A stretch of 64,000 nucleotides of DNA from Paenibacillus sp. RC334. GTDB lineage: Bacteria > Bacillota > Bacilli > Paenibacillales > Paenibacillaceae. The number at the start of each line of letters is the position of its first letter. The stretch's first letter is position 1. The notes under the pieces are model-generated. The model was not told the origin of the DNA and made no database searches. It saw nothing but the letters and a program-made list of their open reading frames with translations. Where the stretch lies: the NCBI RefSeq assembly GCF_030034735.1, contig NZ_CP125370.1:1116001-1180000 (forward strand). The letters are read 5' to 3'. Below, piece after piece: positions 10,509-27,836 of the stretch. A program made the position numbers and the translations under genes.

Positions 10509-12317
10509 ATGGATGCTAATATAAGCGAGTACTTTATTGATGTTCTAAAAAGATGCAAACAATCTTCAAAAGAAGCTGTAGAAAATCTGGATGAATTCAG
10601 TGAGTTTAAAAGATACATGCACGTTCAAAGGCCTGTAGAAGTAGAATTAGAAGCAATTATTAATGAAGCCTATTCTACCGAAAAGGCTCATTTAATTTTG
10701 GTTTGCGGTGGAGTAGGAGACGGGAAGTCACATATTCTTTCATACTTAAAAAATAAATATGATTTCTTAAATGATAAAAGTAGCTTTTATTTGCATAATG
10801 ATGCTACAGAAAGTTTCTCACCTCGTAAGACGTCCATTGAAACGCTAGCGAACGTACTTAAACCGTTTTCTGATCAAGGCCTTCAAGAAGAAGGTTCTCA
10901 AAATATTATTTTAGCGATTAACTTAGGGGCTTTAAATAACTTCATTGATTCCGAAGAAGGAAAATCTTTCTCTCGTCTACGAGATTATGTACATCAAAAA
11001 CGGATCCTAGAGACTGTGATCGAAGATACTCCTGCAGGTGATGATGATACATTTAAATTTGTGAATTTTAGCGATTATCACATTTATGAACTCACTGAAG
11101 CAAGGCCAAAATCAAGCTATATTAAGAATATTTTTCAAAAGATTACTCAGAAATCTTTTGATAATCCATTCTACCAAGCTTATTTAAGGGATTACGAGGA
11201 TAACAAAGAACTTTCCTTGAAAAATCCAATTATACAAAATTACGAGTTGTTTCAGCATGAGGATATACAGGAAAAGATTATTGATCTATTAATACAAGCT
11301 ATGGTAAAGGAAAAACTAATTATATCGACTCGGGCTTTACTTGATTTTGTATTTAATATTTTGGTCCCATCTTCTATGGAAAACATGAACTATTCGCAAT
11401 TAAAGGAATATGTGCAAAATCAAAATTTTAAGTCATATATAGCTTGTTTGCTAGCATTCCAATTATTCGAAAAAGTTGATGCTTCATCTATACATCGCGC
11501 TATACATCAAATTAATCCAACACGAATAAGGACTGAAAAATTAGACCAATATCTTATTGAATTTAAGTCTAGAAAAGATGGAGCCTACCTTTTTGCACAA
11601 TATATAGACATCAATAGAATGTCGTACTTTGCAAGATCTTTTATATCAAATTCACCATGGAGAAATACGGAAAGTAAAGATTATCAACAATATAAACAAA
11701 TGATTATAAAGTTGTTCGTTTATTTGTATTATCTGATCCCTAAAGAGGAACATCATTCTTTTCAAGATAATATCTATAATCAGTTTATGAAAAATTTATA
11801 TCACTGGAATAAACGGGAGTGGAGTAAGCTCTCTAAGTTATATCGAGAAGACGTTAGAGAGGCCATATATAAATGGAATGGTGAAAGCAATGGGGATCTT
11901 ATTTATATTCAAGTAGGACAACCTCAAACGCAATATTATGCTTTGCAAAAATTAGAGGTAGAACCACACGTTAATCGATCGACTATTTTAATGGAAGAAG
12001 AGTTATCTAAATTTCTAACCGTAATGACACTACAGTTTAAAGCCAGAAATTCTGTTTACTCTGAAGAAGATTCGATTGTTTCAATTGATATAGATTTTTC
12101 TTTGTATTCCTTGTTAATTCGAATTAAAAACGGATATCGTCCAAATAAGAAAGATAAATTTCAATTTATTAAGTTTGTTGAGTTCATTGGTAGACTAAGT
12201 AGCGTGGGAAATCAGAAAGAGGAAATTGTGTTTGAGAGTAAGCAATTTGGAAAAATAACTCGGTATCGTTTGAAATTCGACTCAACGTTTGATCAATATT
12301 CGTTTATGGAGACGTGA
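10509..12317 (+). CDS. dptF: DptF/DndF, phosphorothioation-dependent restriction ATPase
   Basis: 602 residues, near the usual DptF length. A P-loop is visible at residues 67-74 (GGVGDGKS) after a beta strand LILVC. The rest is an AT-rich, helical, Lys/Glu-heavy protein without other recognisable motifs. It is first of three overlapping genes (dptF, dptG, dptH), the set that supplies restriction of DNA lacking phosphorothioate in Dnd systems. Identification rests on the P-loop, size, gene order and the dndBCDE-A operon 9 kb away. The proteins act together on DNA in the cytoplasm; the mechanism is not fully known. Confidence 0.85.
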   Translation: MDANISEYFIDVLKRCKQSSKEAVENLDEFSEFKRYMHVQRPVEVELEAIINEAYSTEKAHLILVCGGVGDGKSHILSYLKNKYDFLNDKSSFYLHNDATESFSPRKTSIETLANVLKPFSDQGLQEEGSQNIILAINLGALNNFIDSEEGKSFSRLRDYVHQKRILETVIEDTPAGDDDTFKFVNFSDYHIYELTEARPKSSYIKNIFQKITQKSFDNPFYQAYLRDYEDNKELSLKNPIIQNYELFQHEDIQEKIIDLLIQAMVKEKLIISTRALLDFVFNILVPSSMENMNYSQLKEYVQNQNFKSYIACLLAFQLFEKVDASSIHRAIHQINPTRIRTEKLDQYLIEFKSRKDGAYLFAQYIDINRMSYFARSFISNSPWRNTESKDYQQYKQMIIKLFVYLYYLIPKEEHHSFQDNIYNQFMKNLYHWNKREWSKLSKLYREDVREAIYKWNGESNGDLIYIQVGQPQTQYYALQKLEVEPHVNRSTILMEEELSKFLTVMTLQFKARNSVYSEEDSIVSIDIDFSLYSLLIRIKNGYRPNKKDKFQFIKFVEFIGRLSSVGNQKEEIVFESKQFGKITRYRLKFDSTFDQYSFMET

Positions 12318-12322
12318 ATATA

Positions 12323-13708
12323 ATGAATTATTATTTAAATTCAGAGTTGATTAGGGAAAAATTTAAGTTTACATCTTCTATTAGACACAACCCTAAAACG
12401 GAATTGGAATTTCTCCCTTATAATACAAAATTTAAAGAGGCACAATATAATTTCAGAGAAGTAGTTGGAGAATTCATCAGATTAGTTGGACAGAAAAAAC
12501 TTCCTGAGGATGTGAACTCGGATGATTTGGTTGACAGGGTACTTAATACGATTGATTTTGAAAATATGAATCAGCGCAGTGTATTTAAGCAAACGATAAA
12601 GACATTATTTTTAGATGAAAACAATCAATTATATTTATTTCATCCTAAGACTTTGTACTATATAAATACTGTTGAAAATGAAAATAAAAAACTCGCAATA
12701 TTTCTATACAATGTTTTATGGAACCAAGAAGAGCCATTGGCAGTGGAAAATATCCAAGAAAGTTCTTATGACCTCATGAGTGAACTGCTTTTTAAATCAC
12801 TTCCTGAGCTAAGTGAAATAACGGAAAAACCTGAAAATTATGCAGTCATGTTACCTGAAATCTCCAAACTTTTTATTCAAGATTTCAAGTGGTTAGTTAC
12901 AAAGAGTGATCTATTTACTTTACAGGTCGAAAAAATTATTTCTTATTATTATTTCTTCTATGTTAGTCAATTGTCACTAAGAAACGAGGCAATGTTTACT
13001 CCTTTTGAAAAAGAAATTAGGCCCATTTATTTTACTTTTGAAGGAGAAGAAAAACTATCCAAAACACGTGTCAGTTACGAATATGGTTGGAGAAATTTGG
13101 AGAAATCGATAAATCGTATTTTTTCACATATTAATTTTCTAAAAGTACTTAATCTCTCTAATGGAAAATCTGTTTATTCTTATCAAGATATCGCCTATAG
13201 AATTCGTAATATGTCTCAGGAAGAGCTTGAAATATTGGATCAACAGGTTTCTCAACTGATGGAAGAATACAAAAATAAGCTTTCAGGGGATACAAAATGG
13301 GAGCTTATGGGTACAGTAATGCGCCCATATGACATTCCGGTATTAAATAATATGTATTTGTTCTTTAGTATGATTGATCATCAATTTAATCAAACTAGTC
13401 GTTCTAAGCCTTATAATGAATATAAACAGTGGTTTGTACATTTCTGTCAAAAATCGTTTCTAAAATCAAGAGGAAGATCTGGAAAGATGCTTATTTTAGA
13501 TACAGATTATCTTTTATTCTTTACTAAAATGATTATCCAAGATATGCCTAAAATAAGATTGAAAAAGTTATTTGAAGAATTCGAAACAAGAGGGATTATT
13601 TTTGATCGTGATACTCAAACAGCTATTATAGATTATTTTGAAAAGCTTAATTTGCTTGAGAAAAAAAGTGATAGTGGGGATGCAATATATGTCAAATCAT
13701 TTTTATAA
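12323..13708 (+). CDS. dptG: DptG/DndG, restriction component of the Dnd system
   Basis: 461 residues from the ATG at 12323. A GTG at 12314 overlaps the dptF stop but is too close to the GGAG site at 12308-12311. I see no catalytic motif. The protein is helical with many aromatic residues (SYYYFFYVSQLSL). Its identity comes from position: it sits between dptF and the giant dptH gene and overlaps dptH by 20 bases. DptG is a conserved component needed for restriction with no assigned enzymatic role. Confidence 0.8.
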   Translation: MNYYLNSELIREKFKFTSSIRHNPKTELEFLPYNTKFKEAQYNFREVVGEFIRLVGQKKLPEDVNSDDLVDRVLNTIDFENMNQRSVFKQTIKTLFLDENNQLYLFHPKTLYYINTVENENKKLAIFLYNVLWNQEEPLAVENIQESSYDLMSELLFKSLPELSEITEKPENYAVMLPEISKLFIQDFKWLVTKSDLFTLQVEKIISYYYFFYVSQLSLRNEAMFTPFEKEIRPIYFTFEGEEKLSKTRVSYEYGWRNLEKSINRIFSHINFLKVLNLSNGKSVYSYQDIAYRIRNMSQEELEILDQQVSQLMEEYKNKLSGDTKWELMGTVMRPYDIPVLNNMYLFFSMIDHQFNQTSRSKPYNEYKQWFVHFCQKSFLKSRGRSGKMLILDTDYLLFFTKMIIQDMPKIRLKKLFEEFETRGIIFDRDTQTAIIDYFEKLNLLEKKSDSGDAIYVKSFL

Positions 13709-16700
13709 TTATTTAGCTCAACAGATCCAAAAATTCTTTTCAAATATTAATGTTCAGCCAGGTGAAAAGTATCATATTCAATTTGAACGAACAGAACAAG
13801 TAGAGAATCTTGTAGAGCAAGTTGGTTTATTAAATCATGTAGAACCGTTTTTTATGCAAACAGAGGAAGAGTTATTTCAAACGATATGTTTAATGAATGA
13901 TACAGTGAAAATTCTTATAGCTTCAAATATACATGAGATTACACCGGATTTTTTGACAACTCTTCGTAATAAAGTAGGCACACAAGAAGAACAATTTACT
14001 GATAAAGCAATGTTGCTTATTCATAATTCTAATTTAGATAGTTTGGTGCAAGGGATGACTTCATTTTCAAAAGAAGGAATGCCGTTTCACATTAGCTCTA
14101 TTGAAAAAAATCTACAGGAATTGATGAAAGGTTCGAATCTATCCAAGGAAGAAAAATTAATATTACAATTCATAATGGAGTCAAATAAAGCTCAACAAGG
14201 CTTGCATGAACAAATTACTTTGTTTGATTATGAGAATATAATGAATGTCCTGAATAATGGAAAATTAGAATCGAATGATTATAAAGAATTTAGTTTGTTT
14301 TATGACTCGGAATTGTTTCATACACCAAGGTCGGATAAACAGATTAAAGAACGCTTGAAAGATAATCAAGCTTTGTTTAGCGATGTCGAAATGATTCACC
14401 AGTATGGGCCGATTGATGTTGGTCTAGAAAGACATTTTGATGAACAAGGTGTAAAAGCTCTTTCAGTTTCTGAATGGCAGGATACTGATTTTGGAACGGT
14501 TAGACGTTCTAATCAAAAGAAACTTGAGGGTAAAGGACTTGAGTATATTGAACCTAATAAGAAGTTATCTCTCGAAGGACTGACTTATTGGGAGAAAGCA
14601 GATGGTGAAAGTAAAAGTAAGCAAAGAAAACGAAATATTATTGTATTTAACCCTGATCTCAATAAAACAGTTACACTAGAATTCCCTTTTAATGATTTTA
14701 TAAAAAACCAGTATATTAATAAAAATGAAATGAAGCACAAGTTTGACTCGGAAGCATCTGGGAAAAAGATTAAAGTTTGTTTACATCATGAACCCGGACA
14801 GACAAGCTTCTACGGATTAAGGTATAAAACAGAAGTATCTCAAACATATGATTTCAGAATTGCGATCGTTGAATCTACAGAAAAATTAATTCATTCTATT
14901 CAAACCACTTTTACAATTAATTTATCTAAATCTAAAGGTTCATGTATCCTAATAAACTCTGATGATGATCAGTGGATCCTAAATAAAGGTGCGTCGGAGG
15001 TATTAAAAGCAGAGCTTAGCAGTGAGATAGGAAATAATCAGTTTGATATGACAGAGTCTGATGAGCTAGTTATCCTTAAAAATGCAGATATGGCTAATGA
15101 AGAAGAATTACTTCAGTTTGAAATACGATTACCCTATACTAAAATTCCTTTTGCAGTAAGGGATGTAGTAGAACGTCCTGCTCCGATAAGTGGTTTCAGT
15201 GTGTGGAAATTAAAAAGGGAAAAACAAGCACATTTTGTGTACCACTTTGAGAATGAAAAGATGAAGATTATTCAAGGTACACGTGAGACGTATGCTCAGG
15301 GCGACTTTAAAAAGAATTTAGAACGGGAACTTAAACTGATTGAGTCTAACCACATGTATTTTTATGAAGAAGCTGGAGAGATTATACCTGAAGTTATTTC
15401 AGTGTCAGAGTATTTAAGAGACTCCTATTTTGATTTACTAAGATTTTTTAGAGCAAATGATTTGCTTCCTAGCTTGGCCTTTTTTAACAATGAATATACA
15501 GAATTATCCAGAAATTATGTTAACGCATTTTTAAAAGAGTTAAATGAATTGGAGAACGGGCAATCTTTGGATCATTCGAAAAGAGATCTGGCGCTGATTG
15601 GAACCATTAGAAAGGGTCTTAAGGATCCGGAGTGGCTTTTTACCCCTTTACATCCTTTAAATATTGCCTATCAATTACAATTAAACGATCTTATATGTTC
15701 AGAGGTAATAAATGATGAATTACTTCGTTCTTTAAGACCAACTAACTTATTACCTTACGTCTCATTTAATAATTCGAGATTATTCAAAGCTGTCGAGAAC
15801 AGTGATTCTTTTGAATGGTTAACTTACATTGATCAGAGTTTGCCTAGATTTGAATCTTCAAAATTTTTTGTAAGTAAACTAGTGCAGGAGAAAATTGTAG
15901 AGTTTACAGAGCATTTTTCTTACCTATTTGAATTAGATTATAGGGCCCCTCTAAAAATTAACACGATCAATATGGGGGATTGTCAAGAGATTTTGCAGGG
16001 ATTATTTGAATATTATAAACGACAGCTTAAAAATAAGATTGAGAAAATAGATTTATTACCTATTGAACTCCACATTTACGCCGAAAAAGGAATCAATAAT
16101 GCATTTGAAGAAATGTCACAGTATTCAGATGCTGAGGAAATAGCGAAGATTTTTAATCTGAAGCTAGATTTGGAAGGTTACCATTCAGAAGAACTTCTTA
16201 ATATTTTCCGAGACCAGGTTAAGTTTTATTCAAAAGACGTTCAATCCAATAAATACGAATATAGTCATGTGACTTTTTATCAAATGAGCAAAATTGAGCA
16301 GGTCGCGACGAGTAATGCGTCAGAAATGATTACAGGGGTTTCACTTTTTGGATTGGTTTCGGGTATTCCATCTGTATTTATAAATGATGATTACAAAACA
16401 GGATTTGGTACGAAGTATTACCGAAAATCAAAGACTCCGCTACTTTCAATTGCTCCAAAACTAAATTCATTGCTACGTGTTGCTCGTACGCTGGACAACT
16501 ACCAAGAAGATATGAATATCGTCACCGCGATTTCGGCTGACCATAAACAGAAGCTGGATTTAGTGTATGATTCAGCACACTGGGTAACTTTTATTGAGCC
16601 AAAAGTGGATTTAAGTTTCTTTAAAAATGATGATGCTCAAAAAGACCTGTTAGTTATCCACTATAGTGATCAATATACTTCATCAAGTGGATTTGACGCG

Positions 16701-18890
16701 ATAACAGTAACAAACCGTTCTAAACAATACGAGCGTCTTATTGAAGAGTTTTTAAAATCTCAAAACATTGAATGTACTAAAGAAGATTTACCTCCAATCA
16801 TTAACTTTTTCAATGCTATAAACGGAAACTGGCTGCTACGATTACTAGCACAAAAAAATCAATTTCCAAGAGAGAAAATTAGTATTTTATCTGCAGTGAA
16901 GTTGGCCCTTGCCTCATTAGCACATCGAGATATTATTTGGATTCCGATTTCAATGGAAGAAGTACTTCGAATCTCGGGAGGTACGGGATTAAAGCAAGCT
17001 GAAGGATTGTTTTCGACTAAAAATTTAGGAAAATTCGGTTCTTATAGCGATGATCTTTTATTAGTTGGTATAGAAGATCAAAAAGGTAAACTTTTTGTGC
17101 ATTTGTATCCGGTCGAAGTGAAAATAGGGAATAACTCCTCTGCTGTATATGATAAAGCAATTAATCAAGTAAAAGAAACAAAAGGACTATTAGTAGAATT
17201 TTTAAACGATGAAAAATCTTTTAAAGCGAAATTGTATCGTAATTTCTTTATCCAATTGGCAATTTCAAGTGCTGAAAAAATGAAACTTTATAGTATTTGG
17301 CCTGAACAGTATTGGCAAAATATAACCAGTAGCTATCTGAGAGAGAAACTTTCAAATGATGATTATCAAATCTGTAATACACTGCAAGAGTATATCGGGC
17401 ATGGTGCAGTAATTTCATTTAAGAAAGATGTTGTTTTTACTGATATAAAGAAGACCGAAGATGTATTAATATTTAATTATCCCGAACAAAGTGGGTATGA
17501 CTTCCTTGTGAAAAGTATCGAGGAAATTAAAGATCATATACAAAGTGATTACGGTGATATTCCCAAGGATCAATTACTTTCTAATCTATATGATTCTAAA
17601 AGTGACTACGTAAAAACCAATGACACCGAGGATAATTCGATTCGATTAATAGCTGAAGACAATGATGAATATCGAGTATCTAGCTATCATGAAGTGGCAT
17701 CAACTGCCTTAGAGTCAAAAGATGTAGACGTTAATAAACCATTTTCTACAAAACCATTGGAGGTTTTGTTTGGTCATAATGCACAGAGTGGACAAGAAAT
17801 AAAATGGTATCCGACTACTACAGATAAAGTCATGCATACGAATACAGGAATTATTGGCACAATGGGGACAGGAAAGACTCAATTTACAAAGTCATTAGTT
17901 ACTCAACTTTACCGGAATAGTAAAGATAATATTTATAGTACACCGATTGGCATTTTAATATTTGACTATAAAGGTGACTATATTAAACCAGAGTTTGTTG
18001 AGGTAACGCAAGCAAAGGTTTATGATTTATATCATTTGCCATATAATCCATTATCATTATATATTACAGAACCAGCTAGGCCCTTGTTACCTATGCATAC
18101 AAGCAATTCTCTGACGGATACCATCAGTAGAGCTTTCAACTTAGGACCTGTGCAATCTATTACTCTAAAGGATTTAATTATGGATGCATATGCTCAAAAA
18201 GGGATTCTTAAAGGGGATTGTACAACCTGGAATAACTCAGCTCCAACCTTTAAAGATATCTACGATTTATACTCCCAAAGAGAAGGAGTAAAGATCGATA
18301 GCCTCTATGCTGCATTAAAGGAATTATATGATACCGAAGTATTTGAGCCTGCTGCTGATCAAACAATTCCTTTATTTGATATGGTTGAAGGGATTACTGT
18401 AATTAACTTGTCTGGCTTTAACGAAAGTATTCAAAATTTAGTAGTGTCTATAACTTTAGATGTGTTCTATAACCAAATGCAAATGCAAGGTCATAGTGCG
18501 ATTAAGGGGAGCTATCGTGAAATTACAAAAATGATTTTGGTTGATGAAGCAGATAACTTCTTGAGTAAAAACTTCACTTCAATTAAAAAAATCCTTAAAG
18601 AAGGCCGAGAATATGGTGTAGGTACTATTCTATCTACGCAATTCCTTAGTCACTTTTCGACTTCTGATAACGATTATGCAAATTATATCTTGACTTGGAT
18701 AGTTCATAGCGTTTCTGAAATGTCTTCTAAAGAGATCAGGATGGTATTTAGTACGCAAAATAAAGCAGAGGAAGAAAATATCATGAATAGAATCAAATCA
18801 TTGCAGAAGCATTATAGTATTGTAAAAATAGGTTCAGATCAACCCATATGGATGAGGGATCGGGCATTTTGGGAGTTGGAAAAAGAATAA
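13689..18890 (+). CDS. dptH: DptH/DndH, large HerA/FtsK-like ATPase with nuclease-like motif
   Basis: 1733 residues from the ATG at 13689, the ATG best spaced from a GGGGA site; the frame is open further upstream inside dptG. The C-terminal third is a HerA/FtsK-type motor: Walker A GTMGTGKT at about 1390-1397 and Walker B MILVDEADN with Asp-Glu at 1619-1620. Between residues 1121 and 1145 lies SDDLLLVG ... YPVEVKIG, an Asp-x(about 20)-Glu-x-Lys layout compatible with a PD-(D/E)XK nuclease core. The N-terminal 1100 residues have no recognised domain. In Dnd systems DptH is the largest restriction component. The nuclease reading is my inference from the motif. Confidence 0.85.
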   Translation: MSNHFYNYLAQQIQKFFSNINVQPGEKYHIQFERTEQVENLVEQVGLLNHVEPFFMQTEEELFQTICLMNDTVKILIASNIHEITPDFLTTLRNKVGTQEEQFTDKAMLLIHNSNLDSLVQGMTSFSKEGMPFHISSIEKNLQELMKGSNLSKEEKLILQFIMESNKAQQGLHEQITLFDYENIMNVLNNGKLESNDYKEFSLFYDSELFHTPRSDKQIKERLKDNQALFSDVEMIHQYGPIDVGLERHFDEQGVKALSVSEWQDTDFGTVRRSNQKKLEGKGLEYIEPNKKLSLEGLTYWEKADGESKSKQRKRNIIVFNPDLNKTVTLEFPFNDFIKNQYINKNEMKHKFDSEASGKKIKVCLHHEPGQTSFYGLRYKTEVSQTYDFRIAIVESTEKLIHSIQTTFTINLSKSKGSCILINSDDDQWILNKGASEVLKAELSSEIGNNQFDMTESDELVILKNADMANEEELLQFEIRLPYTKIPFAVRDVVERPAPISGFSVWKLKREKQAHFVYHFENEKMKIIQGTRETYAQGDFKKNLERELKLIESNHMYFYEEAGEIIPEVISVSEYLRDSYFDLLRFFRANDLLPSLAFFNNEYTELSRNYVNAFLKELNELENGQSLDHSKRDLALIGTIRKGLKDPEWLFTPLHPLNIAYQLQLNDLICSEVINDELLRSLRPTNLLPYVSFNNSRLFKAVENSDSFEWLTYIDQSLPRFESSKFFVSKLVQEKIVEFTEHFSYLFELDYRAPLKINTINMGDCQEILQGLFEYYKRQLKNKIEKIDLLPIELHIYAEKGINNAFEEMSQYSDAEEIAKIFNLKLDLEGYHSEELLNIFRDQVKFYSKDVQSNKYEYSHVTFYQMSKIEQVATSNASEMITGVSLFGLVSGIPSVFINDDYKTGFGTKYYRKSKTPLLSIAPKLNSLLRVARTLDNYQEDMNIVTAISADHKQKLDLVYDSAHWVTFIEPKVDLSFFKNDDAQKDLLVIHYSDQYTSSSGFDAITVTNRSKQYERLIEEFLKSQNIECTKEDLPPIINFFNAINGNWLLRLLAQKNQFPREKISILSAVKLALASLAHRDIIWIPISMEEVLRISGGTGLKQAEGLFSTKNLGKFGSYSDDLLLVGIEDQKGKLFVHLYPVEVKIGNNSSAVYDKAINQVKETKGLLVEFLNDEKSFKAKLYRNFFIQLAISSAEKMKLYSIWPEQYWQNITSSYLREKLSNDDYQICNTLQEYIGHGAVISFKKDVVFTDIKKTEDVLIFNYPEQSGYDFLVKSIEEIKDHIQSDYGDIPKDQLLSNLYDSKSDYVKTNDTEDNSIRLIAEDNDEYRVSSYHEVASTALESKDVDVNKPFSTKPLEVLFGHNAQSGQEIKWYPTTTDKVMHTNTGIIGTMGTGKTQFTKSLVTQLYRNSKDNIYSTPIGILIFDYKGDYIKPEFVEVTQAKVYDLYHLPYNPLSLYITEPARPLLPMHTSNSLTDTISRAFNLGPVQSITLKDLIMDAYAQKGILKGDCTTWNNSAPTFKDIYDLYSQREGVKIDSLYAALKELYDTEVFEPAADQTIPLFDMVEGITVINLSGFNESIQNLVVSITLDVFYNQMQMQGHSAIKGSYREITKMILVDEADNFLSKNFTSIKKILKEGREYGVGTILSTQFLSHFSTSDNDYANYILTWIVHSVSEMSSKEIRMVFSTQNKAEEENIMNRIKSLQKHYSIVKIGSDQPIWMRDRAFWELEKE

Positions 18891-18964
18891 GATTCAAATG
18901 AATTTTACAATACTTTTCTTAAAGCCTTTTTCAAACGATACAGATGACAAATAAAATATTGGAG

Positions 18965-18999
18965 AAAGCGGCACTTCTAAATTAAAGAATTGTCGCTTT
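18965..18999 (+). other. Hairpin between dptH and the DGQHR gene
   Basis: AAAGCGGCACTTCT (18965-18978) pairs with AGAATTGTCGCTTT (18986-18999) with two mismatches. No T run follows, so it may be a weak terminator, a processing site or a regulatory hairpin in the leader of the next gene. Confidence 0.4.
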
Positions 19000-19030
19000 A
19001 ATACAGACTATTAACAAGGGGGAAGAACGC

Positions 19031-20281
19031 ATGAACTCAAAGATAAATGTTATTCCTTATAAATGGAATGAACAATCTTGCTATATAGGAATTATAAATT
19101 ATAAAGATCTACCTAATTTAGTGGATATACGTTCCGATATATCTATGAATAGAAAAATTGATGATAAGAGAGTCGAGGGGATAAAACAATATATTCTTAA
19201 TGATATTTCGGGTACATTTTTTCCTCCAGCTATTCTCAATAGCAGAGCTACTCTATCATTTGAAAAAACAGGATTTTTGAGTGTTAGAAACGGGAATTTC
19301 ACAGTTATCGATGGTCAACATCGAATAAAAGCGATAATAACTTTGTTAGATGAAATAAAGGGCCCTTTAAGTGATGAACTGAAATTAATGGAGCTACCCA
19401 TAGTCATAATTGAAAACCTTGAAAATTACCAACATAGAGATTTATTTTATATGATTAATGAAACACCAAAAAATGTGGAAAGTAATGTCTCTGAGCGATT
19501 TGCGCCTAAATTAGAGAATTTGTTAGGGCTAGATTTTTTCTCTAAGCATAAGCATTTAATAGATAGCATCGAATGGCATGAAAAACAGTCTAAAGAAAAG
19601 ATAGTATATCTACATATGACTGATTGCATTCGTGAATTAACTCGGATACTATATCCAAATTTAAGAGACTGGTATGATTGCGAAAGAGATTTACTTTATA
19701 AAGAATCTACCTATACAGACATCATTACCCATTACTGGAATAAATATTTCGAGATACTTAGTCAGTTGAAATCAAAGGCATTTTTTAGAAAAAAAATAAC
19801 AATCAGAGCTATAATTGAGGATGTTTATAATAAAATAGATTATATATTCAATGTACAGGCATTTAACCCGAGAACTTTAGAAGAAAGTATTCGTAAAATT
19901 AAGCAGCTTATAGATGAATCAATGGAAACTTTGCTTTGTGACCCATTAATTGAATACCATGGTTCAGAAAGTGTAAGAAAAGATGTTTTTTCATCAATTA
20001 GACACTTTTTAACGATTAATAACAAATTAATTAAATACAAGGACTATATAAATAAAAATTCTAAGATTAAATCTATAATTGTTAAGGTATTAGAACCTTA
20101 TTATGTAGATAACATACTTTTATTAGATAGTTCTGATTATCTTCTATTAGATAGTACTTTGCAGGACATTTTTAATAATACTGAACATATAAATGAAATA
20201 GAGGCTGAGGCAATTAAGTCATTAATGATAAATAAACAAACAACCGTGAATGAGATTTTTGAATCTTCTGTTAAGGGGTGA
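19031..20281 (+). CDS. Second DGQHR-domain (DndB-like) protein
   Basis: 416 residues with a good GGGGGAAG site upstream. The motif VIDGQHRIKAI lies at residues 92-102 (DGQHR at 94-98), preceded by a segment VEGIKQYILNDISGTFFPPA and followed by LFYMINETPKNV, the DndB/DpdB layout. It differs from the DndB of this island: it is longer, and the region after residue 200 is unrelated by eye (Lys/Ile-rich, helical). It lies after dptH and 7 bases before the HEPN-like gene, in the same direction, so the two are almost certainly co-transcribed. DGQHR proteins accompany DNA-modification systems; DndB represses dnd genes. Its own role is unknown. Confidence 0.8.
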   Translation: MNSKINVIPYKWNEQSCYIGIINYKDLPNLVDIRSDISMNRKIDDKRVEGIKQYILNDISGTFFPPAILNSRATLSFEKTGFLSVRNGNFTVIDGQHRIKAIITLLDEIKGPLSDELKLMELPIVIIENLENYQHRDLFYMINETPKNVESNVSERFAPKLENLLGLDFFSKHKHLIDSIEWHEKQSKEKIVYLHMTDCIRELTRILYPNLRDWYDCERDLLYKESTYTDIITHYWNKYFEILSQLKSKAFFRKKITIRAIIEDVYNKIDYIFNVQAFNPRTLEESIRKIKQLIDESMETLLCDPLIEYHGSESVRKDVFSSIRHFLTINNKLIKYKDYINKNSKIKSIIVKVLEPYYVDNILLLDSSDYLLLDSTLQDIFNNTEHINEIEAEAIKSLMINKQTTVNEIFESSVKG

Positions 20282-20288
20282 GAAAAAG

Positions 20289-21515
20289 ATGAATAAAATA
20301 TTTCCAAAAGAATATCCTAAGTATCAAACAAGTCTATTCGTAGTATGTAAATCAAATCATAGTGAAATGACATTGAAAGATATATGTAATTCAGAAAGAT
20401 ACTCGAATAACATTAAAGTTTATATAAATACTCGTTTTGAAAATATCATATTTGTGACCTTTTTTCCACATCAAGACAAAATAAAATTTTTTGAGAAGGT
20501 GAAAAAAGAATTTATAGAAAGTTTAAGTAACGTTTGTTCCTATATATCTATAGCTTATGACAATCAAACTATTATATATATGAAAGAAATATCTGAGAGT
20601 GTTTATATTCTGGAAAGAGAATTTCGTACACTTATAGAAATTATATTTTTGAAAGAAATGGGTATTAATTGGTATTCCCATTACTTTCAAAATTCAGAAA
20701 ATGAGAAAGATCGGGTGAGAAAAAGAGACAAAATTCTTCATTACCTCAATAATCCGTTAGATAGTCTAGACTTTGTTCATCTAAAGAATTTTGTTGAAGA
20801 ACGTATTAAATTTTCTAAAAATGTAATGTCGGATAAGTTAGATACTATTAAGGATGAGCTTGCTTCTTTCGCTTCATCTAATGACAATACTCAACAATTG
20901 TACGAAAAAATATTAGATAATTTAGAAGAAGTGAAGAAATTATCCGGTCTCAAAAAAACACTTGAAGTTTCAAATCTTTATCAGCACATAACCTCCGAAC
21001 TAGCTGATGAGTGGAAAAATCTTTATGATTATAGAAACCCTTGGGCACATAATCACTGCTTATTGACGAGGAGTGAATTAGAAAAATATAGAGAGCTTGC
21101 ATCCTCAGTTTTGAAAAAAATTAGGACTGAAATAACTTTACTTAGTCTATTAGAGGATGGGGCTGAATTTAAAATACAAAGCGATATCATAACTTTGAAT
21201 TTAACGAATTTTTCTAGATTAGGAACCCCTTTTTGTAGACTGAAACTACAAATTAAGAGCAGCGCAAGTCAGCAACATATTCTAGAAATAATTGAGGCTA
21301 CTTATGTTGAGGTAGTTACAGTATTAGATGTTTTGAAGAAATATGCAGACTATAATGACTCCGAGATTAGTTTGGAAAATCTTAAGTTGAATCCATTCTT
21401 CATTGATAATCTTAAGTCTTTTGGTGAAAATCTTTTTAAGTCTGGTGAGTTACAGGAAAAAAATCACATTGAATTTAGATTCCTTGGAACAATTCTTTTT
21501 GAAAGAGAATTCTGA
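20289..21515 (+). CDS. HEPN-like protein paired with the DGQHR gene
   Basis: 408 residues from the ATG at 20289, spaced from a GGGGTGAG site. A helical segment at about 115-140 (VYILEREFRTLIEIIFLKEM) and a later YRNPWAHNHCLLTRSEL block fit a HEPN fold. Arg249 and His254 give the R-x4-H signature (RNPWAH) of catalytic HEPN ribonucleases. The N-terminal 100 residues form an unrecognised alpha/beta domain. The frame stops at 21513-21515, but another frame carries a plausible C-terminal tail to 21612 (see finding on the A7 tract). HEPN proteins in defence islands are often RNases, but nuclease activity here is inference. Confidence 0.6.
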   Translation: MNKIFPKEYPKYQTSLFVVCKSNHSEMTLKDICNSERYSNNIKVYINTRFENIIFVTFFPHQDKIKFFEKVKKEFIESLSNVCSYISIAYDNQTIIYMKEISESVYILEREFRTLIEIIFLKEMGINWYSHYFQNSENEKDRVRKRDKILHYLNNPLDSLDFVHLKNFVEERIKFSKNVMSDKLDTIKDELASFASSNDNTQQLYEKILDNLEEVKKLSGLKKTLEVSNLYQHITSELADEWKNLYDYRNPWAHNHCLLTRSELEKYRELASSVLKKIRTEITLLSLLEDGAEFKIQSDIITLNLTNFSRLGTPFCRLKLQIKSSASQQHILEIIEATYVEVVTVLDVLKKYADYNDSEISLENLKLNPFFIDNLKSFGENLFKSGELQEKNHIEFRFLGTILFEREF

Positions 21516-21653
21516 ATATCAGCTTAAAAAGATAGAAGGTACAAAATCCTTTATGAAAGAAGATGTAGATATTTTGTTAAACGAAATATTTCCTCGCACA
21601 GAGAGAAATTAAGTTTAATAAAACTTTGAATTTTTTAATTGGGCTAATTTCCT

Positions 21654-21694
21654 AAAAAACACATAGTATGTTTTTTTACACTATGTGTTTTTTT
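21654..21694. terminator. Bidirectional terminator between the convergent dpt-side and dnd operons
   Basis: Stem CACATAGT (21660-21667) / ACTATGTG (21680-21687), flanked by six A on the left and seven T on the right, so it can act on both strands. It separates the end of the plus-strand genes from the end of dndA. Confidence 0.85.
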
Positions 21695-21702
21695 ATTGAT
21701 TT

Positions 21703-22836
21703 CTATCTAATCTGTTTAAAAAGGTTCAGGTCTTTTTCACTAACATCAGAACTCAAAGTTACTCGGATAGTCTGACGGACTTCCTCAAGCGACTTACCAG
21801 CAGCGCTCAATACATGACTTGGTTTACTAGAACTGCAAGCGGAGCCAGAGGAAAGGGCTACAAAAGAGGAGAGCTTTTTTAAAAGTAATTCATTATTAAT
21901 GCCAATAAATTGCAAACTAATCAAGCCGGGAATTTTATTTTTTTCGTCGCTATTAAATTTAACTTTGTCTCTTAAATTCGTTTTAAAGATGTCTATTAAG
22001 TACTTTTCTAAATCGTTTAACCTTTTTACATTTTTATTGAGGTTTTTATGAGCTAGCTCAGCAGCTTTTCCTAACCCTACAATATTATGCACAGCTAGCG
22101 TGCCACTCCGATAATTGTTTTCTTGTCCTCCCCCGTGGAGGAGAGGAGTGAGACGCGTATAGATCTCTTTGGATTGCTTTCGTATTATTGCTGCTCCGAC
22201 GCCCTTTGGCCCTCCGATCTTATGGCCAGATAGAGATAAGAATCGAACACCTTCAAGTTTGTTTAAAGCAATTGGGACTTTACCTACGACTTGGGTAGCG
22301 TCTGTGTGAAAAAAGAGACCGTTTTCTTCGAATACTAACGATAAATCCTCAATTGGATTTAATGAACCTATTTCATTATTACCCCACATAATTGAAGTAA
22401 GCATAGGACTGTCATGTACAACTGCCTCTTTTACTTTTTGAATATCCACTCTAGCAAATTGATCTACGTCCAAATAATTAATCTGGAAATCATGCTCCTC
22501 TAAAAAATTCAATGTCTCAATAACTGATGGATGTTCTGCTTTTGAAGTAAGCATATTTTTGTTAGCATTGTTTTGTCTCCCGTAATAGTCGGCAATCCCC
22601 TTGATGATCATATTGTTACTTTCGGTAGCACCACTGGTGAAAACAACTTCATCAGCATCACATCCAAGAAGTTCGGCAACTTGTTCACGTGCTTTGGAGA
22701 CTGCTTTTTTTGCATTTTCGGCTAATAAGTAGAATTTGCTAGAGGGATTACCGTATTCTTCTTGTAAATAAGGTAGCATAGTATCCAGAACTTCAGGATG
22801 GATTTTTGTCGTTGCACTATTGTCTAAATAAAGCAT
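21703..22836 (-). CDS. dndA: Cysteine desulfurase DndA (IscS-like), sulfur donor for phosphorothioation
   Basis: 377 residues, the usual length for the NifS/IscS family. It starts LYLDNSATTKIHPEVL. The PLP lysine is Lys206 in LSGHKIGGPKG, the cofactor His is in TSKAEHPSVIETL, and the active-site cysteine is Cys334 in SSGSACSSSKPSH. It removes sulfur from L-cysteine as an enzyme-bound persulfide, which is passed to DndC for insertion into the DNA backbone. The gene is last in the operon, 18 bases after dndE, which is one reason to call it DndA rather than a housekeeping IscS. In many systems dndA is divergent or absent; here it is in the operon. Confidence 0.88.
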   Translation of the reverse strand: MLYLDNSATTKIHPEVLDTMLPYLQEEYGNPSSKFYLLAENAKKAVSKAREQVAELLGCDADEVVFTSGATESNNMIIKGIADYYGRQNNANKNMLTSKAEHPSVIETLNFLEEHDFQINYLDVDQFARVDIQKVKEAVVHDSPMLTSIMWGNNEIGSLNPIEDLSLVFEENGLFFHTDATQVVGKVPIALNKLEGVRFLSLSGHKIGGPKGVGAAIIRKQSKEIYTRLTPLLHGGGQENNYRSGTLAVHNIVGLGKAAELAHKNLNKNVKRLNDLEKYLIDIFKTNLRDKVKFNSDEKNKIPGLISLQFIGINNELLLKKLSSFVALSSGSACSSSKPSHVLSAAGKSLEEVRQTIRVTLSSDVSEKDLNLFKQIR

Positions 22837-22854
22837 AATATCACAACTTTCAAT

Positions 22855-23232
22855 TTATAGTAGCAAAGCACGAATAAACTTTTCGTAATTTCCAGTACTT
22901 TTATACTCGGCAGCAAGTGCTCTAATTCCGCGTTCTAGGTGAGCATTAAAGTAACCTGGAAAGAACTCTTCGTCTGAGAGTTCTTTCCCCGATGCTTGGG
23001 TAATCATTGCACGGAAAATATAATCGTATTCCCCAGTTACTGTACTGCGGTTAAGAGAAAGCCCATCAGTAAAGTCTTTTGTGAGAGGTGTAAGCTCAGC
23101 AGAAGAATCTCCAATCTTTAAAGAGAGAGCTACCGCGTAACGAATTAATATATTTGGCGTAATGCTTGTAGAAGCTTGGAGTTGTAAAAGTACGTCTTTT
23201 GCATATTTGGATGTTTTTAAAGTGAAATTCAT
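22855..23232 (-). CDS. dndE: DndE, small DNA-binding component of the phosphorothioation machinery
   Basis: 125 residues, matching the family length. It begins NFTLKTSKYAKDVLLQLQ and has the helical pattern of DndE with ISTPNILIRYA-like and FFPGYFNAHLERGIRALAAE blocks. The start codon overlaps the dndD stop by one base (TAATG), showing translational coupling. DndE is a tetrameric helical protein that binds nicked DNA and is needed for phosphorothioate formation. Assignment rests on size, position and the conserved C-terminal helix; I see no catalytic motif. Confidence 0.85.
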   Translation of the reverse strand: MNFTLKTSKYAKDVLLQLQASTSITPNILIRYAVALSLKIGDSSAELTPLTKDFTDGLSLNRSTVTGEYDYIFRAMITQASGKELSDEEFFPGYFNAHLERGIRALAAEYKSTGNYEKFIRALLL

Positions 23233-25226
23233 TAGAGGGCGTTCTCCCTTGTGATATTAAAGTATCGGCCTTGAACGATTTCTGCTGCTTCTAAAGCTTC
23301 ATTAAATTCTAATGTGTAACAGATTGAAGTAATATCTTTAATTAGTTCAAATTGCTCGGAGGCAATTTCAGAATCTGTGGTAAACATCAATACTTGCTTG
23401 CCGCATTTAGGTACAAAATGTTGAATTAATGCTCTTTTGTGGTCTTGATCAAGACGACCAAAAAGAGTATCAAATACAAAAGGAAGTTTCCAACCTGAAA
23501 CTTTAAACATTGCCCAAATTACGCTAAGCATAAGCATTTCCTTTTCCCCAGCAGATAAGCGTTCCTTGTTAATTTCTTGTTTCTCCTTATTGTAAAGATG
23601 CAATTCGAATGAAGAGTGATCTATATGCATCCGTTCAATATAAGATTTTTTTCTAAAGAGAATGTTAATCATTTTTGTAGCTTCTTTTGCTACATCATCT
23701 AGTTTTTTACGCCATTGCCTTTCTCTAAATCGTTGGCTCACATTTAATAGTTTTTCAGTCATAACAAAGGAGTTCTCAGCTTTATGAAAGTCTCTAATTT
23801 TTTCTGTTATCTTGTTAGAAGCGGTTATTTTTATTCGAATGTTTTCTTTTAAAGTGTCTACTTCACTGGAAGCTAGCTCAATTGTAAGCTTTAGTTGCTC
23901 AATTCTTTTAGTCTTATTTTCTATACTTTCAAGTAGATCTTTAAATTCACTAGCCTGATCATTTCTTCCAACAGCTTTTCTAAAATTCTGTGCTTCTTCT
24001 AGTAGCTTTGTATTTGTATCAAATAATTGGATAAAACTAGAAGCATCTAAAGTTTGAATCTGTCTATACAAGCTATGAATCTCGCTTTGCTGTTCAAAGG
24101 AGGCCCGGTGGAGTAATTGAATATTTTCAGGCCGAATTAAATTAAGAATACCCTCATATAGCTGATCCATATCTAACATTGCAGATGACGTATTTGTCTG
24201 TAGATTGGTTAGCAATTCATTAAGTTTATTTTTTTCTAAGGTTGATGCAACAAACTCATAAGACTCATGCTCTTTCTCTAGGGAAAGTTGTCGATCAACT
24301 TCTTTTAATTGTGTACGAGCAATATAAAAAGGCAGTAATGTATTTGCAAAGGTACGAATTTTATCGGTGTTGGCTTTTCTAGTATTTTCAATATAATTGA
24401 TTTTTGTGACCAGTTCTTGCCGTCTTTCTTGAACTAAACCACCATGAATTTCAAACTCTTTTTTATCTTTTTTAATCAGATCAATTAAATTTATAATTTC
24501 TCCTTCACTAGATGAAACCAATTCCTCAGTTTTTCCTAGCTTTTGTTCTAGTTCACTGATTTCAGATCCCAATTTATTCTGCTCATCAATTTCTTTTGTT
24601 GCTTCCAGATTTTTTTGAGCATATTGTAATCGGTAAGTTTGTAAATCTTTCTCTAGGTTCATAAAGAGATCCAAGTTAAAAAGGATCTTTCCTGACTCGC
24701 TTAAATATTCAGGAATCTTTTCCTCAGAAACAATTCTGGAGATTTCTTCACCGTCAAAAAGGCACAATTCAAATAATCGAGGCGGCATTTCTTCGCGCAG
24801 TCGGTTTTGGAAATCTGAAATTTCTTGTGCATTTAAGTGTTTTCCGTTTTTTTGGATTGAAAAGTATTCTTTAATTTTTTTATTTTTAAATCTCCAACTA
24901 CGAATTAAGGAGTAATGATTGACCTCGAGATCTTCCGTAGAAATATAGTCAAGTAAAATCTGAAAATCATTCTCACCTATTTGTAGAGCCTTGCGATTCA
25001 ATAATGAGCGTATTTTGCGAAAATAAGGTTCATTATCGGTTATAAATCCGTAAGCCATCGAACCAAATAGTACAATTCGTAGAGACTCCAAAATAGTAGT
25101 CTTGCCAGCGCCATTCTTACCGCCTAGCAGGATAACATTATTGGTAGAGGTTGTTCTAAAATCAAACTTATTTAGGTTTCCATAATAAGCGCCTATATTA
25201 CGAAGCACCAATTTATTAATTTGCAT
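23232..25226 (-). CDS. dndD: DndD, SMC/SbcC-like ATPase of the phosphorothioation machinery
   Basis: 664 residues. Walker A GKNGAGKT is at 36-43. A long coiled-coil region (about 190-540) with Glu/Lys-rich heptads follows. The C-terminal ABC-type signature is LSAGEKEMLMLSVIWAMF and Walker B is LPFVFDTLFGRLD, i.e. an SbcC/Rad50-like head. DndD binds and hydrolyses ATP and likely manipulates DNA during sulfur insertion. It is third in the operon, 17 bases after dndC and coupled to dndE. Confidence 0.92.
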   Translation of the reverse strand: MQINKLVLRNIGAYYGNLNKFDFRTTSTNNVILLGGKNGAGKTTILESLRIVLFGSMAYGFITDNEPYFRKIRSLLNRKALQIGENDFQILLDYISTEDLEVNHYSLIRSWRFKNKKIKEYFSIQKNGKHLNAQEISDFQNRLREEMPPRLFELCLFDGEEISRIVSEEKIPEYLSESGKILFNLDLFMNLEKDLQTYRLQYAQKNLEATKEIDEQNKLGSEISELEQKLGKTEELVSSSEGEIINLIDLIKKDKKEFEIHGGLVQERRQELVTKINYIENTRKANTDKIRTFANTLLPFYIARTQLKEVDRQLSLEKEHESYEFVASTLEKNKLNELLTNLQTNTSSAMLDMDQLYEGILNLIRPENIQLLHRASFEQQSEIHSLYRQIQTLDASSFIQLFDTNTKLLEEAQNFRKAVGRNDQASEFKDLLESIENKTKRIEQLKLTIELASSEVDTLKENIRIKITASNKITEKIRDFHKAENSFVMTEKLLNVSQRFRERQWRKKLDDVAKEATKMINILFRKKSYIERMHIDHSSFELHLYNKEKQEINKERLSAGEKEMLMLSVIWAMFKVSGWKLPFVFDTLFGRLDQDHKRALIQHFVPKCGKQVLMFTTDSEIASEQFELIKDITSICYTLEFNEALEAAEIVQGRYFNITRENAL

Positions 25227-25243
25227 TGAATATTATCCACCTT

Positions 25244-26737
25244 CTATAGATGTAAGAAATCCTGTTTAAGGGTTTTATCGAATGATTGAAATAGACCTCT
25301 TCTTACTTTAACGCCTGAATAATCTTTTTCAACAGAGATTAATTGCTTGAGCAGGCTGAGGTTAACTCCTTCTTCTTGGCATAATGTCTCAAGGTCAGTC
25401 AACTGGTCTTCCTTGAAAACTGGGCGATCATCATGTTGCCAATCAAAATCTTCACCAGTTTCATCCTTTACGATTTGAGGTAATCGATCTTCCCATTGCA
25501 AGTCATCATGCCAATACTTACGAATAGCTTTAAGTTCTTCAATGGTGATCAGCTCAATATTGGGGTCATGAAGCTTGCGTACGGTCTTCTGTGTGCGAAG
25601 CAGCCTTCTTAAGATTTCCTCTCGAGCGTTAAGAGTGAAGGGGCCAACACCAAATCGTTTATAGCTTTCATCATCATCTATTACAATAACATCGAGATCT
25701 TCAACTGTAGCTAAATTAATATTGTTATTTTCAATATATTGTTTTATTTCAGATTTATAGATCTTAGGGTGACTTTCAATATCAGAAATTCCGTCTAAAT
25801 TTGAAGTTAAGTATACTTCACCATTCATCCGATGCTTTTGTCTCTGTGTACGATCTTCTCTAATTTCTACCAAAAAATTTCTGAATTCGTAAAGTGGACG
25901 AAGCCAATCGACGCCACTATTAATAAACCCACTTAAAGCCTTATCTTCATTAACAACAGTACAAGTCCAGCAGCCAAATCGGCTATTCCCGCAAGAACCA
26001 GCGCTTTCTTTGACTTGTTTATCTACTACAAGAGGACATTCACTGCTCGAATCTTGATACAATTGAAGCAACTCATTATTATCATCTCCCCAAGGGGACT
26101 CATACTGCAACAAAAATTCCCATACATCATCGAGACTGAAAGCGCGGATCGGCGCAAATACAAAAGCATTACGTAAAGTAGAATGTCGCATTAATTTCTT
26201 ACCTTCAATGGTATGTGATTGCATAACAGCTGCGCGAGTTGAACTTTCAGAATCCCTTACACCGAGAAGCATGATGACTTCACCAAATTGATCTACTTTA
26301 TCTAGAATAAACCGATTTGCTGGATCAATCTTTAGACGATCTGTACACCATCTGAACTTTTGGCGCGGAGTTGGATATCCTTTTCCAATAATAGAGGACC
26401 AGAAAGTTTGTTCTACTTTAGGACGAACCTTTTGGGTTTCAATAGGCAATCCTAATTCCAAAGCTTTGCTTTGGATTCGTCCTAACGTTCTAGTAATTTT
26501 ATTGATAATAAGTGGGGTTTCCACTTGGGTGTCTGAAGAGATTACGTACACTTTTTTACTCAAAGAGGAAGTATCAAGCTCACTCAATGCTTGAAATACT
26601 AGTTGTACAACAGCAGTAGAATCTTTACCTCCACTAAATCCAACTACCCAAGGCCGTTCATCAGCTAAATAAACTTCTTTAACGAGTTCCTTAGCTTCTA
26701 TAAATTTACTTCCTGTATTGAATATATTAAGTTCCAA
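25244..26737 (-). CDS. dndC: DndC, PAPS-reductase-like ATP pyrophosphatase
   Basis: 497 residues. The PP-loop motif SGGKDST is at 35-41 after a beta strand WVVGF. A cysteine cluster CGNSRFGCWTC (C-x6-C-x2-C), with another Cys in SECPL upstream, fits the Fe-S cluster reported for DndC. The region RQKFRWCTDRLKIDP is the PAPS-reductase family substrate loop. DndC is thought to activate the phosphate backbone for sulfur attack. It overlaps dndB by 11 bases and precedes dndD. Confidence 0.93.
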   Translation of the reverse strand: MELNIFNTGSKFIEAKELVKEVYLADERPWVVGFSGGKDSTAVVQLVFQALSELDTSSLSKKVYVISSDTQVETPLIINKITRTLGRIQSKALELGLPIETQKVRPKVEQTFWSSIIGKGYPTPRQKFRWCTDRLKIDPANRFILDKVDQFGEVIMLLGVRDSESSTRAAVMQSHTIEGKKLMRHSTLRNAFVFAPIRAFSLDDVWEFLLQYESPWGDDNNELLQLYQDSSSECPLVVDKQVKESAGSCGNSRFGCWTCTVVNEDKALSGFINSGVDWLRPLYEFRNFLVEIREDRTQRQKHRMNGEVYLTSNLDGISDIESHPKIYKSEIKQYIENNNINLATVEDLDVIVIDDDESYKRFGVGPFTLNAREEILRRLLRTQKTVRKLHDPNIELITIEELKAIRKYWHDDLQWEDRLPQIVKDETGEDFDWQHDDRPVFKEDQLTDLETLCQEEGVNLSLLKQLISVEKDYSGVKVRRGLFQSFDKTLKQDFLHL

Positions 26738-27821
26738 GAGGAGAAACCTCCTTTATTTTATTTTCAATTTTTTGTTCTTGTTCTGTTAATGGGAGTCCAA
26801 TCTTCAATTTAATAAGATTCGCTGTTAATTGAATGGTTTCATTTGTTTTGTTGATGCGTCCGGTTTGTCCATAAGCGCGACCTAGCCAATCCTTTTTATT
26901 GTCACGATTCCAGTCAACATGTTTAAGCTTTTTAATAAATCCTTGCCATTCGTCTGTATGATGGAAGTAAAGATAATGTCCGACAATACCCACTGCTTCT
27001 AAAAAAACACCGTGAGCAATAACTGAGTTGGATCTCAGATCTCTAGGGGTTACCTTCTTATTTAATACATCTTCCCATTCTGTAATAGACTCGCAGAGAA
27101 CAAGCCAGAAATGATTCACAAATTCTTTTTCTTGTTCTGAGATCATCTGGCCCTTACCTTTGCCTAAGAGGCGGCAGTTTGTATTAAAGATATGATTTAA
27201 GGCGAATAATTTAGGCGAATTTTTAGACAAAGATACTCTTTCACGGTCAGTATAACGTTCAAGTAAAGGGATGTCAGCAATGAGACTTTTAGTAATAAGT
27301 GATAGCTGATCACGATGATCATATAAAATTCCGATGGATGAAGTTGTGTTGACTGCATGCCGATTTAAATCCGAAAACATTTGCTGAGAGCGAATGAGAC
27401 CTAAATCTTGGAAGAAAACAACGGAAATTGTCTCGTCACCCAGCTCAGGTGCGATTTTCAACGCATCCTCAATTGCTGCCCGTCGATGTTGTCCGTCATT
27501 AATTAAGAACTTAGAATCGAGTGATATAGTAAGATATCCAATATCTTTAAATTCGTTGGAATTTTCCTGGAAAATCATCTCGCCATCAACGGAGGCAGTT
27601 AAGGAAGAGAATATGTAGTCTGTAGGATTTTCAAGAATATAATTAGTTATATCTGGAATTCTTGATTTATTCATAAGACGTTGAGCGCGATGCTCGGCTG
27701 GGATTTCTTCCTCATCAAATAAAAAAATCTTAGGAATTAATCGTAAAGGACACATTACTGTGTAAAATTCTCTCCCAGCTTGAAAACCTCTAAGGGCAGG
27801 GAAACTATAACTAAAGTTCAT
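26727..27821 (-). CDS. dndB: DndB, DGQHR-domain regulator of the dnd operon
   Basis: 364 residues from the ATG complementary to 27819-27821, which has an AAGGAG site nine bases upstream; an ATG two codons earlier is too close. The signature LINDGQHRRAAIE contains DGQHR at 109-113. A helical C-terminal half with DLNRHAVNTTSSI follows. Known DndB proteins repress dnd transcription and bind DNA. It is first in dndB-C-D-E-A. The second DGQHR protein at 19.0-20.3 kb shares the motif but little else. Confidence 0.9.
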   Translation of the reverse strand: MNFSYSFPALRGFQAGREFYTVMCPLRLIPKIFLFDEEEIPAEHRAQRLMNKSRIPDITNYILENPTDYIFSSLTASVDGEMIFQENSNEFKDIGYLTISLDSKFLINDGQHRRAAIEDALKIAPELGDETISVVFFQDLGLIRSQQMFSDLNRHAVNTTSSIGILYDHRDQLSLITKSLIADIPLLERYTDRERVSLSKNSPKLFALNHIFNTNCRLLGKGKGQMISEQEKEFVNHFWLVLCESITEWEDVLNKKVTPRDLRSNSVIAHGVFLEAVGIVGHYLYFHHTDEWQGFIKKLKHVDWNRDNKKDWLGRAYGQTGRINKTNETIQLTANLIKLKIGLPLTEQEQKIENKIKEVSPLGT

Positions 27822-27836
27822 TAGCATTCTCCTTGG

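Follow-up and report, generated by a model that had tools for sequence, protein, structure and literature searches.

A DGQHR and HEPN-like gene pair in a variable slot of a Paenibacillus Dnd/Dpt phosphorothioate island: a possible sensor-effector cassette

A stretch of 64,000 nucleotides from Paenibacillus sp. RC334 (assembly GCF_030034735.1, contig NZ_CP125370.1, positions 1,116,001 to 1,180,000; hereafter the window, in whose positions all coordinates are given) contains a Dnd/Dpt phosphorothioate (PT) island, consisting of dptFGH and dndABCDE. Between these two parts lie two genes on the plus strand, encoding a DGQHR protein of 416 residues (gene 1, 19031..20281) and a HEPN-like protein of 408 residues (gene 2, 20289..21515). 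The pair is real and conserved, and we found it under no system name. We lean towards the view that it is a two-gene sensor-effector cassette in an exchangeable cargo slot of the island, because of the predicted fold of gene 1, the motif of gene 2, the parallel divergence of the two genes and the other modules found in the same slot.

Results

Conservation and distribution of the pair

A first-pass annotation had placed two co-directional genes, 7 bases apart, between dptFGH and the dnd operon. Reading of the open reading frames (ORFs) of the window confirmed the coordinates, the strand and the gap of 7 bp. The pair runs in the same direction as dptFGH; the dnd operon (dndA, E, D, C, B) is on the opposite strand, so that gene 2 and dndA converge. 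The two genes were adjacent, in the same position and orientation, in the three genomes examined for this: the window, P. vini (L008) and G093 (G and L numbers are our handles for genomes and loci). P. vini and G093 carry the same block of 10 genes, in which the pair separates dptH from dndA. G112 was consistent with this arrangement, its gene 1 and gene 2 lying at two contig ends, where adjacency is not visible. Gene 1 starts 49-140 bp behind dptH in the three genomes, and read-through from dptFGH is therefore possible.

DptH scored over its cut-off in 17 of the 394 genomes of the family (profile search). The pair was present in three of these 17 and in none of the 377 family genomes without dptH. 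Gene 2 matched in four family genomes, the fourth match being a solitary protein (G173), and gene 1 in eight at 1e-10, five of which have remote DGQHR proteins. DptH and the pair are both missing from a genome of the same species as the window (G138), and the island therefore looks accessory. Scanning genome contigs with the DGQHR alignment yielded 14 loci, two of which were loci of the pair (L007, Paenibacillus sp. Root52, and L008, P. vini); beside the other 12, which hold remote DGQHR proteins, no gene 2 profile match was seen among the ORFs shown. The same scan with the HEPN alignment returned nothing (40 pattern-matching stretches, none confirmed). In the protein database, 7 of the 11 gene 2 clusters other than that of the window could be matched, indirectly, to a gene 1 cluster on a contig of equal size. 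Sequence identity in gene 1 co-varied with that in gene 2 (Spearman 0.92 over 45 comparisons of 10 pairs), these comparisons not being independent and seven of the 10 pairs being matched indirectly by equal-sized contigs. In the genomes examined, adjacency, distribution and co-variation thus bear out that the two genes co-occur, as the first-pass annotation had required of its proposal, and are linked to dnd/dpt.

Gene 1 encodes a second DGQHR protein, separate from DndB

The DGQHR motif of gene 1 (residues 94-98) was invariant in all 21 aligned gene 1 sequences. The protein scored over the cut-offs of PF14072, the Pfam family of DndB (67.1 bits, cut-off 29.1), and of TIGR03187 (63.6 bits, cut-off 58.85), which places it in the DGQHR domain family. 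It shares this family, PF14072 and the island with DndB, but differs from it in scoring far under the cut-off of the DndB equivalog TIGR03233 (15.1 bits, cut-off 328) and in its position in the tree, where the relatives of gene 1 formed one side of a 100/100 branch, apart from DndB. This tree comprised 37 rows, the remote DGQHR rows of R. tumorigenes, L014, L017, L019 and G269 having been left out. Score and tree confirm the earlier claim of a second DGQHR protein separate from the DndB of the island, and they ruled out that gene 1 is a recent DndB copy.

In the structure model of gene 1 (mean predicted local distance difference test, pLDDT, 87.5) the N-terminal domain matched ParB/Srx folds by structure comparison and the C-terminal part was helical. 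SspE and DndI (the latter known here by its PDB title only) both appeared in the fold list, with weak Z scores. Gene 1 stayed under the cut-off of PF03235 (DUF262; 20.1 bits, cut-off 33.2) and had no match to PF07510 (DUF1524 HNH) at an expect value (E) of 1 or less; judged by these profiles, it is not an effector of the GmrSD/SspE/DndI type. Searches of PDB sequences with gene 1 and gene 2 gave no credible relative, the best E being 0.012 for a mitochondrial peptidase subunit.

Gene 2 is a HEPN-like candidate ribonuclease

The first-pass annotation had pointed to a 408-residue protein with RNPWAH at residues 249-254 in a HEPN-like context. Length and motif were confirmed. In all 16 aligned gene 2 sequences, that of the window included, R249, N250, W252, A253, H254 and N255 were identical, and R-N-x3-H remained invariant in relatives down to about 30% identity. 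Gene 2 contains four Rx4-6H strings, only one of which, R249-H254, is invariant at both ends. Shuffled versions of gene 2 held 1.1 such strings on average and 2.4% of them reached four, so the mere presence of such strings means little; in the alignment, it is through conservation that the R249-H254 motif stands above chance.

HEPN domains are defined by an Rx4-6H motif with a polar residue (N, D or H) directly after the arginine, located at the end of helix 3 and the beginning of the loop leading to helix 4 (PMC3710099). In gene 2 both the motif (R249-H254) and the polar residue (N250, in 16 of 16) are present. The structure model (pLDDT 79.8) has a ferredoxin-like N-terminal domain (residues 14-91) and, further on, helices at 236-249, 251-254 (short) and 261-286, so that R249 closes a helix and H254 lies just before the next long one. 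This placement fits HEPN, the numbering as helix 3 being our own reading and the confidence being low at residues 253-255. E109-x3-R113, of the Ex3[KR] type that HEPN expects in helix 2, is also invariant, but sits in the domain-opening helix 92-124 of the model. The Pfam family most often matched was HEPN_Swt1 (PF18731), found at E of 1 or less in 13 of the 16 sequences (best 0.0021), which are related to each other; the next family was matched by four. The invariant motif, its place in the model and these weak matches support the HEPN-like nature of gene 2, which likely carries a HEPN fold.

The only PADLOC model to match gene 2 sequences at E of 1 or less was the candidate PDC-M34B (10 of 16, best 2e-4; residues 96-170 in the window), which has 192 positions whereas the members of the gene 2 family mostly have 428-450 residues. 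No literature on PDC-M34 was found. The solitary relative of gene 2 in G173 (L034:9385-10701, 438 residues) has a HEPN_Swt1-like C-terminal part (E 2.8e-4, also under cut-off) and a match to DnaX_C, and no dnd/dpt matches were present in the 19 kb examined around it.

The dptH-dndA slot holds different modules

The slot between dptH and dndA, which has no strand of its own, measures 2812 bp in the window (18891..21702) and from 230 to 6576 bp among the 12 genomes measured. Across the 17 family genomes with DptH it held six kinds of module or none (window and loci L052-L064); the first-pass annotation had mentioned neither this variability nor the early end of gene 2 described below. Apart from the DGQHR and HEPN-like pair (three genomes), we found genes for a RelA/SpoT-domain and a DGQHR protein separated by 3 bp, with a SIR2-like gene in the opposite orientation after them (G378, L054:5839-8598); a GmrSD protein (G089 and G379; G165 shows the beginning of such a protein before its contig breaks off, with dndA not seen); PbeA- and PbeC-like genes plus two more (G375 and G389, the latter judged by matching sizes and order); HATPase and Methyltransf_35 (G125), accompanied by SIR2 in G383; and an opposed gene of 674 residues with a small partner (G130 and G191). 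Of the two 674-residue products, that of G130 was scanned with profiles and matched PbeC (832 bits) and DndD (349 bits). The small partner was weakly DndE-like in G191 (E 0.016) and without a match in G130, the slot of which also has transposase genes. The slot of G122 is empty (230 bp). In G283, G285 and G369 dptH and the dnd operon share one direction, which leaves no convergent slot.

In a sample of the class, 19 of 398 genomes exceeded the DptH cut-off, five of which the family set included as well. Stretches from 16 new genomes with a DptH match, two of them under the cut-off, were examined. G986 has, between dptH and dndA, a DGQQR protein like that of G165; G956 has a DndD-like gene and two others; G1018 and G1042 have nothing there. 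The other 12 stretches showed no convergent dndA in the portion examined, in some because the contig ends.

Core genes and pair differ in their identities. The P. vini dptH, dndA, dndC and dndB are 77-86% identical to those of the window and 71-84% to those of G093, while its pair is 30-35% identical to that of the window and 57-61% to that of G093; G093 and G112 are 90-96% alike in the same four genes and 66% in the pair. Judged by these identities, the island core and the cassette therefore seem to have different histories, with both cassette genes sharing theirs. By eye, no common sequence motif was seen at the slot junctions of 12 genomes, and our guess is therefore that homologous recombination within dptH and dndA brings about the exchange. 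The variety of contents suggests that Dnd/Dpt islands swap last-resort effector modules through this slot.

A RelA/SpoT and DGQHR pair outside the slot

The gene order of the G378 module recurs on two lactococcal dairy plasmids, pLLNCDO702C and pUCCL630B (L100:3827-6014 and L101:3827-6014), with the RelA/SpoT and DGQHR genes 10 bp apart; the Pfam scan covered the locus of the first plasmid. Compared with G378, the DGQHR protein is 30% identical over 92%, and the RelA region 32-33% over 26-33% of the query. The tree placed the two RelA/SpoT-partnered DGQHR proteins together (100/98), each on a long branch, and an earlier tree of 42 rows had warned of their meeting. No dnd genes are annotated in the stretch shown of these plasmids. 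Among ten partners of other DGQHR genes, a RelA/SpoT domain in one was the sole Pfam domain over cut-off.

Discussion

Proposed function

In the cassette as we picture it, gene 1 would bind a nucleotide and report the state of DNA or of nucleotides, as the DUF262 part of SspE suggests by analogy. In SspE, a ParB-like DGQQR domain couples PT-DNA binding, guanosine triphosphate hydrolysis and licensing of the nuclease (PMC13251355). Gene 1 may likewise be a nucleoside triphosphate (NTP)-gated sensor that licenses gene 2 as its effector; the two systems differ in that SspE has a DNA-cutting HNH effector fused to the sensor, and the pair a separate HEPN-like candidate ribonuclease. The signal might come from PT marks, by their loss or their presence, or from phage DNA at a restriction complex, PT sensing being the least certain step. 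Gene 2, putatively a metal-independent HEPN ribonuclease, would then stop growth, so that the cassette would act as a last resort should Dpt restriction be evaded.

PT islands have been studied mainly for modification and DNA restriction. A slot that swaps effectors, with a DGQHR protein next to a ribonuclease or an alarmone synthetase domain, could help to explain differences between PT islands, and DGQHR proteins outside dnd operons would gain a testable sensor role. Reading the slot between dptH and dndA is also a simple route to new defence modules. At its widest, and here we speculate with little confidence, DGQHR proteins of the ParB/Srx fold might be a general NTP-gated sensor platform for varied growth-arrest effectors (a HEPN ribonuclease, or the RelA/SpoT-type synthetase of G378 and the lactococcal plasmids); the Dnd/Dpt slot would exchange such cassettes, and PT status would gate abortive infection not just through DNA cutting but also through the cleavage of RNA or through alarmones.

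Weighing the alternatives

A number of results weigh against a functional sensor-effector cassette. In the gene 2 model, pLDDT falls below 50 at residues 253-255, and gene 2 of the window scores 14.2 bits with HEPN_Swt1, under the cut-off of 27.5. The VIA-align list for the model consists mostly of ferredoxin-like matches to residues 8-97 plus scattered rows and includes no HEPN chain, although a list so taken up by the N-terminal domain excludes nothing. The relative in G173 stands alone, and 4 of the 11 gene 2 clusters have no gene 1 cluster on an equal-sized contig (one of the four is on a contig of 1464 bases). The pair is rare, the window being the sole match among 398 genomes drawn from the phylum. 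Two peptide patterns found no gene 2 in viral contigs (14 pattern-matching stretches, none confirmed), and gene 2 was not found in plasmids or phages. Gene 1, for which plasmids were the mobile elements covered, had no match there at 1e-5, and at a limit of 10 only remote DGQHR proteins appeared, in 20 records. That the pair is borne by phages or plasmids was rejected on these searches.

Gene 2 of the window, moreover, lacks the conserved tail in frame. Positions 384-433 of the family profile match 21442..21591 on the plus strand (contig 1137442-1137591) in a different frame, with E 2.3e-7 and no stop inside the match, and in 11 other clusters of the first protein-database search gene 2 has 428-450 residues instead of 408. 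The module in the window may therefore be decaying, with a truncated and perhaps inactive gene 2, or the shift may be a sequencing error. We hold this to be possible but doubtful, and it is compatible with each of the other readings: the HEPN motif is intact and conserved, as is the remainder of both genes, the motif lies outside the displaced tail, and intact copies of gene 2 exist in relatives. Also compatible with the others, and in our opinion somewhat unlikely, is that the pair is a defence system in its own right, merely hitch-hiking in the island and functionally independent of phosphorothioation. The mutually unrelated contents of the slot, the solitary G173 protein and the lactococcal RelA/SpoT and DGQHR pairs are in line with such mere proximity, and against it stand the absence of the pair from all family genomes without dptH and its identical position and orientation in three genomes, consistent in a fourth.

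The chief rival, already raised in the first-pass annotation, is a toxin-antitoxin system, in which the DGQHR protein, as antitoxin or transcriptional repressor, would neutralise or repress a HEPN ribonuclease that is freed on loss or titration of gene 1. Two adjacent, co-directional and co-diverging genes would suit it. Type II antitoxins are small, unlike the 416-residue gene 1 product with its predicted ParB/Srx fold; the start of gene 1 so closely behind dptH speaks against this reading too, and a free-standing toxin-antitoxin pair would not need the link to dnd/dpt. DndB, also a DGQHR protein, is described as acting on palindromes in the promoter to regulate its own operon (PMC4507180), and fusions of HEPN to minimal nucleotidyltransferases recall type II toxin-antitoxin pairs (PMC12839542), both of which argue for it. 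By analogy, the ParB/Srx-fold relative SspE favours the role of an activating sensor for gene 1 no less than that of an antitoxin, and overall we regard the toxin-antitoxin explanation as unlikely. Still less probable is a pair of regulators, in which gene 1 would act like DndB and tune PT levels or the expression of dnd/dpt, with gene 2 as an inactive or nucleic-acid-binding HEPN-like partner. Gene 1 does match the Pfam family of DndB, and some HEPN families are inactive (PMC3710099), but a dead site would not be expected to keep R-N-x3-H invariant over such divergent relatives, elsewhere the slot mostly holds enzyme-like proteins, and 14 of the 17 dptH genomes do without the pair.

Comparison with known systems

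The nearest validated analogue of the proposed cassette is PD-T4-2, an anti-T4 system of E. coli that likewise combines a ParB/Srx-fold domain (DUF262) with HEPN. A review table gives it under DUF262 as well as under HEPN (PMC10952713), and its defence against T4 was shown by deletion (PMC9519451). PD-T4-2 differs in being of the DUF262 type, in contrast to the DGQHR/DndB type of the pair, and a link to PT islands does not figure in the portions of its descriptions cited here. The PADLOC models of PD-T4-2 gave no match at E of 1 or less to either window protein; PD-T4-2_A matched one of the 21 gene 1 sequences at 8.6e-4.

HEPN ribonucleases near Dnd genes have been proposed as back-up suicide effectors (Rakesh, Aravind and Krishnan 2024; PMC10853773), and these Dnd-border nucleases resemble gene 2. 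The sections of that paper available to us differ in presenting neither a DGQHR and HEPN pair nor a fixed dptH-dndA slot, and the word DGQHR is absent from them. Nor was the pair seen in the available parts of PMC10853773 and PMC12839542 as literature naming DndB and HEPN. No literature joining DGQHR and HEPN was found in a search outside of which lay most subscription papers and preprints. The first-pass statement that no described system has this layout therefore holds for the exact layout, but needs tempering, since PD-T4-2 is a close analogue and HEPN ribonucleases at Dnd borders are already in print.

The surrounding island and other DGQHR loci

The genes dptF, dptG, dptH and dndB were identified with NCBIfam and PADLOC profiles, and dndA, dndE, dndD and dndC by size, order and sequence only. 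On the plus strand lie dptF (10509..12317; TIGR03238, 276 bits, cut-off 50), dptG (12314..13708; TIGR03236, 162.7 bits, cut-off 20) and dptH (13638..18890; TIGR03237, 782.7 bits, cut-off 620.65), the start of the latter being approximate as the listed ORF overlaps dptG. The minus strand carries dndA (21703..22836), a cysteine desulfurase gene convergent with gene 2, named by sequence and order and conserved in relatives, followed by dndE (22855..23232; size and order), dndD (23232..25226) and dndC (25244..26737; both by sequence and order). The island's own DGQHR regulator, dndB (26727..27827), scored 504.4 bits with TIGR03233.

DGQHR genes also occur in other arrangements. On plasmids pCD033 (L102:3014-4966) and pVF21 (L103:3012-4888) a DGQHR gene lies right behind a gene for 260-273 residues, possibly another two-gene DGQHR module; these partners have no Pfam domain over cut-off. 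At L010, L011, L015, L017 and L019 an ORF of 165-178 residues directly precedes the DGQHR gene and overlaps it by 4 to 14 bases. Two DGQHR genes flank an ORF of 148 residues in G269 (L024), and tandem DGQHR genes are present on a Priestia plasmid (L104:4869-7014) and in four family genomes (G275, G277, G281 and G313; L025-L028).
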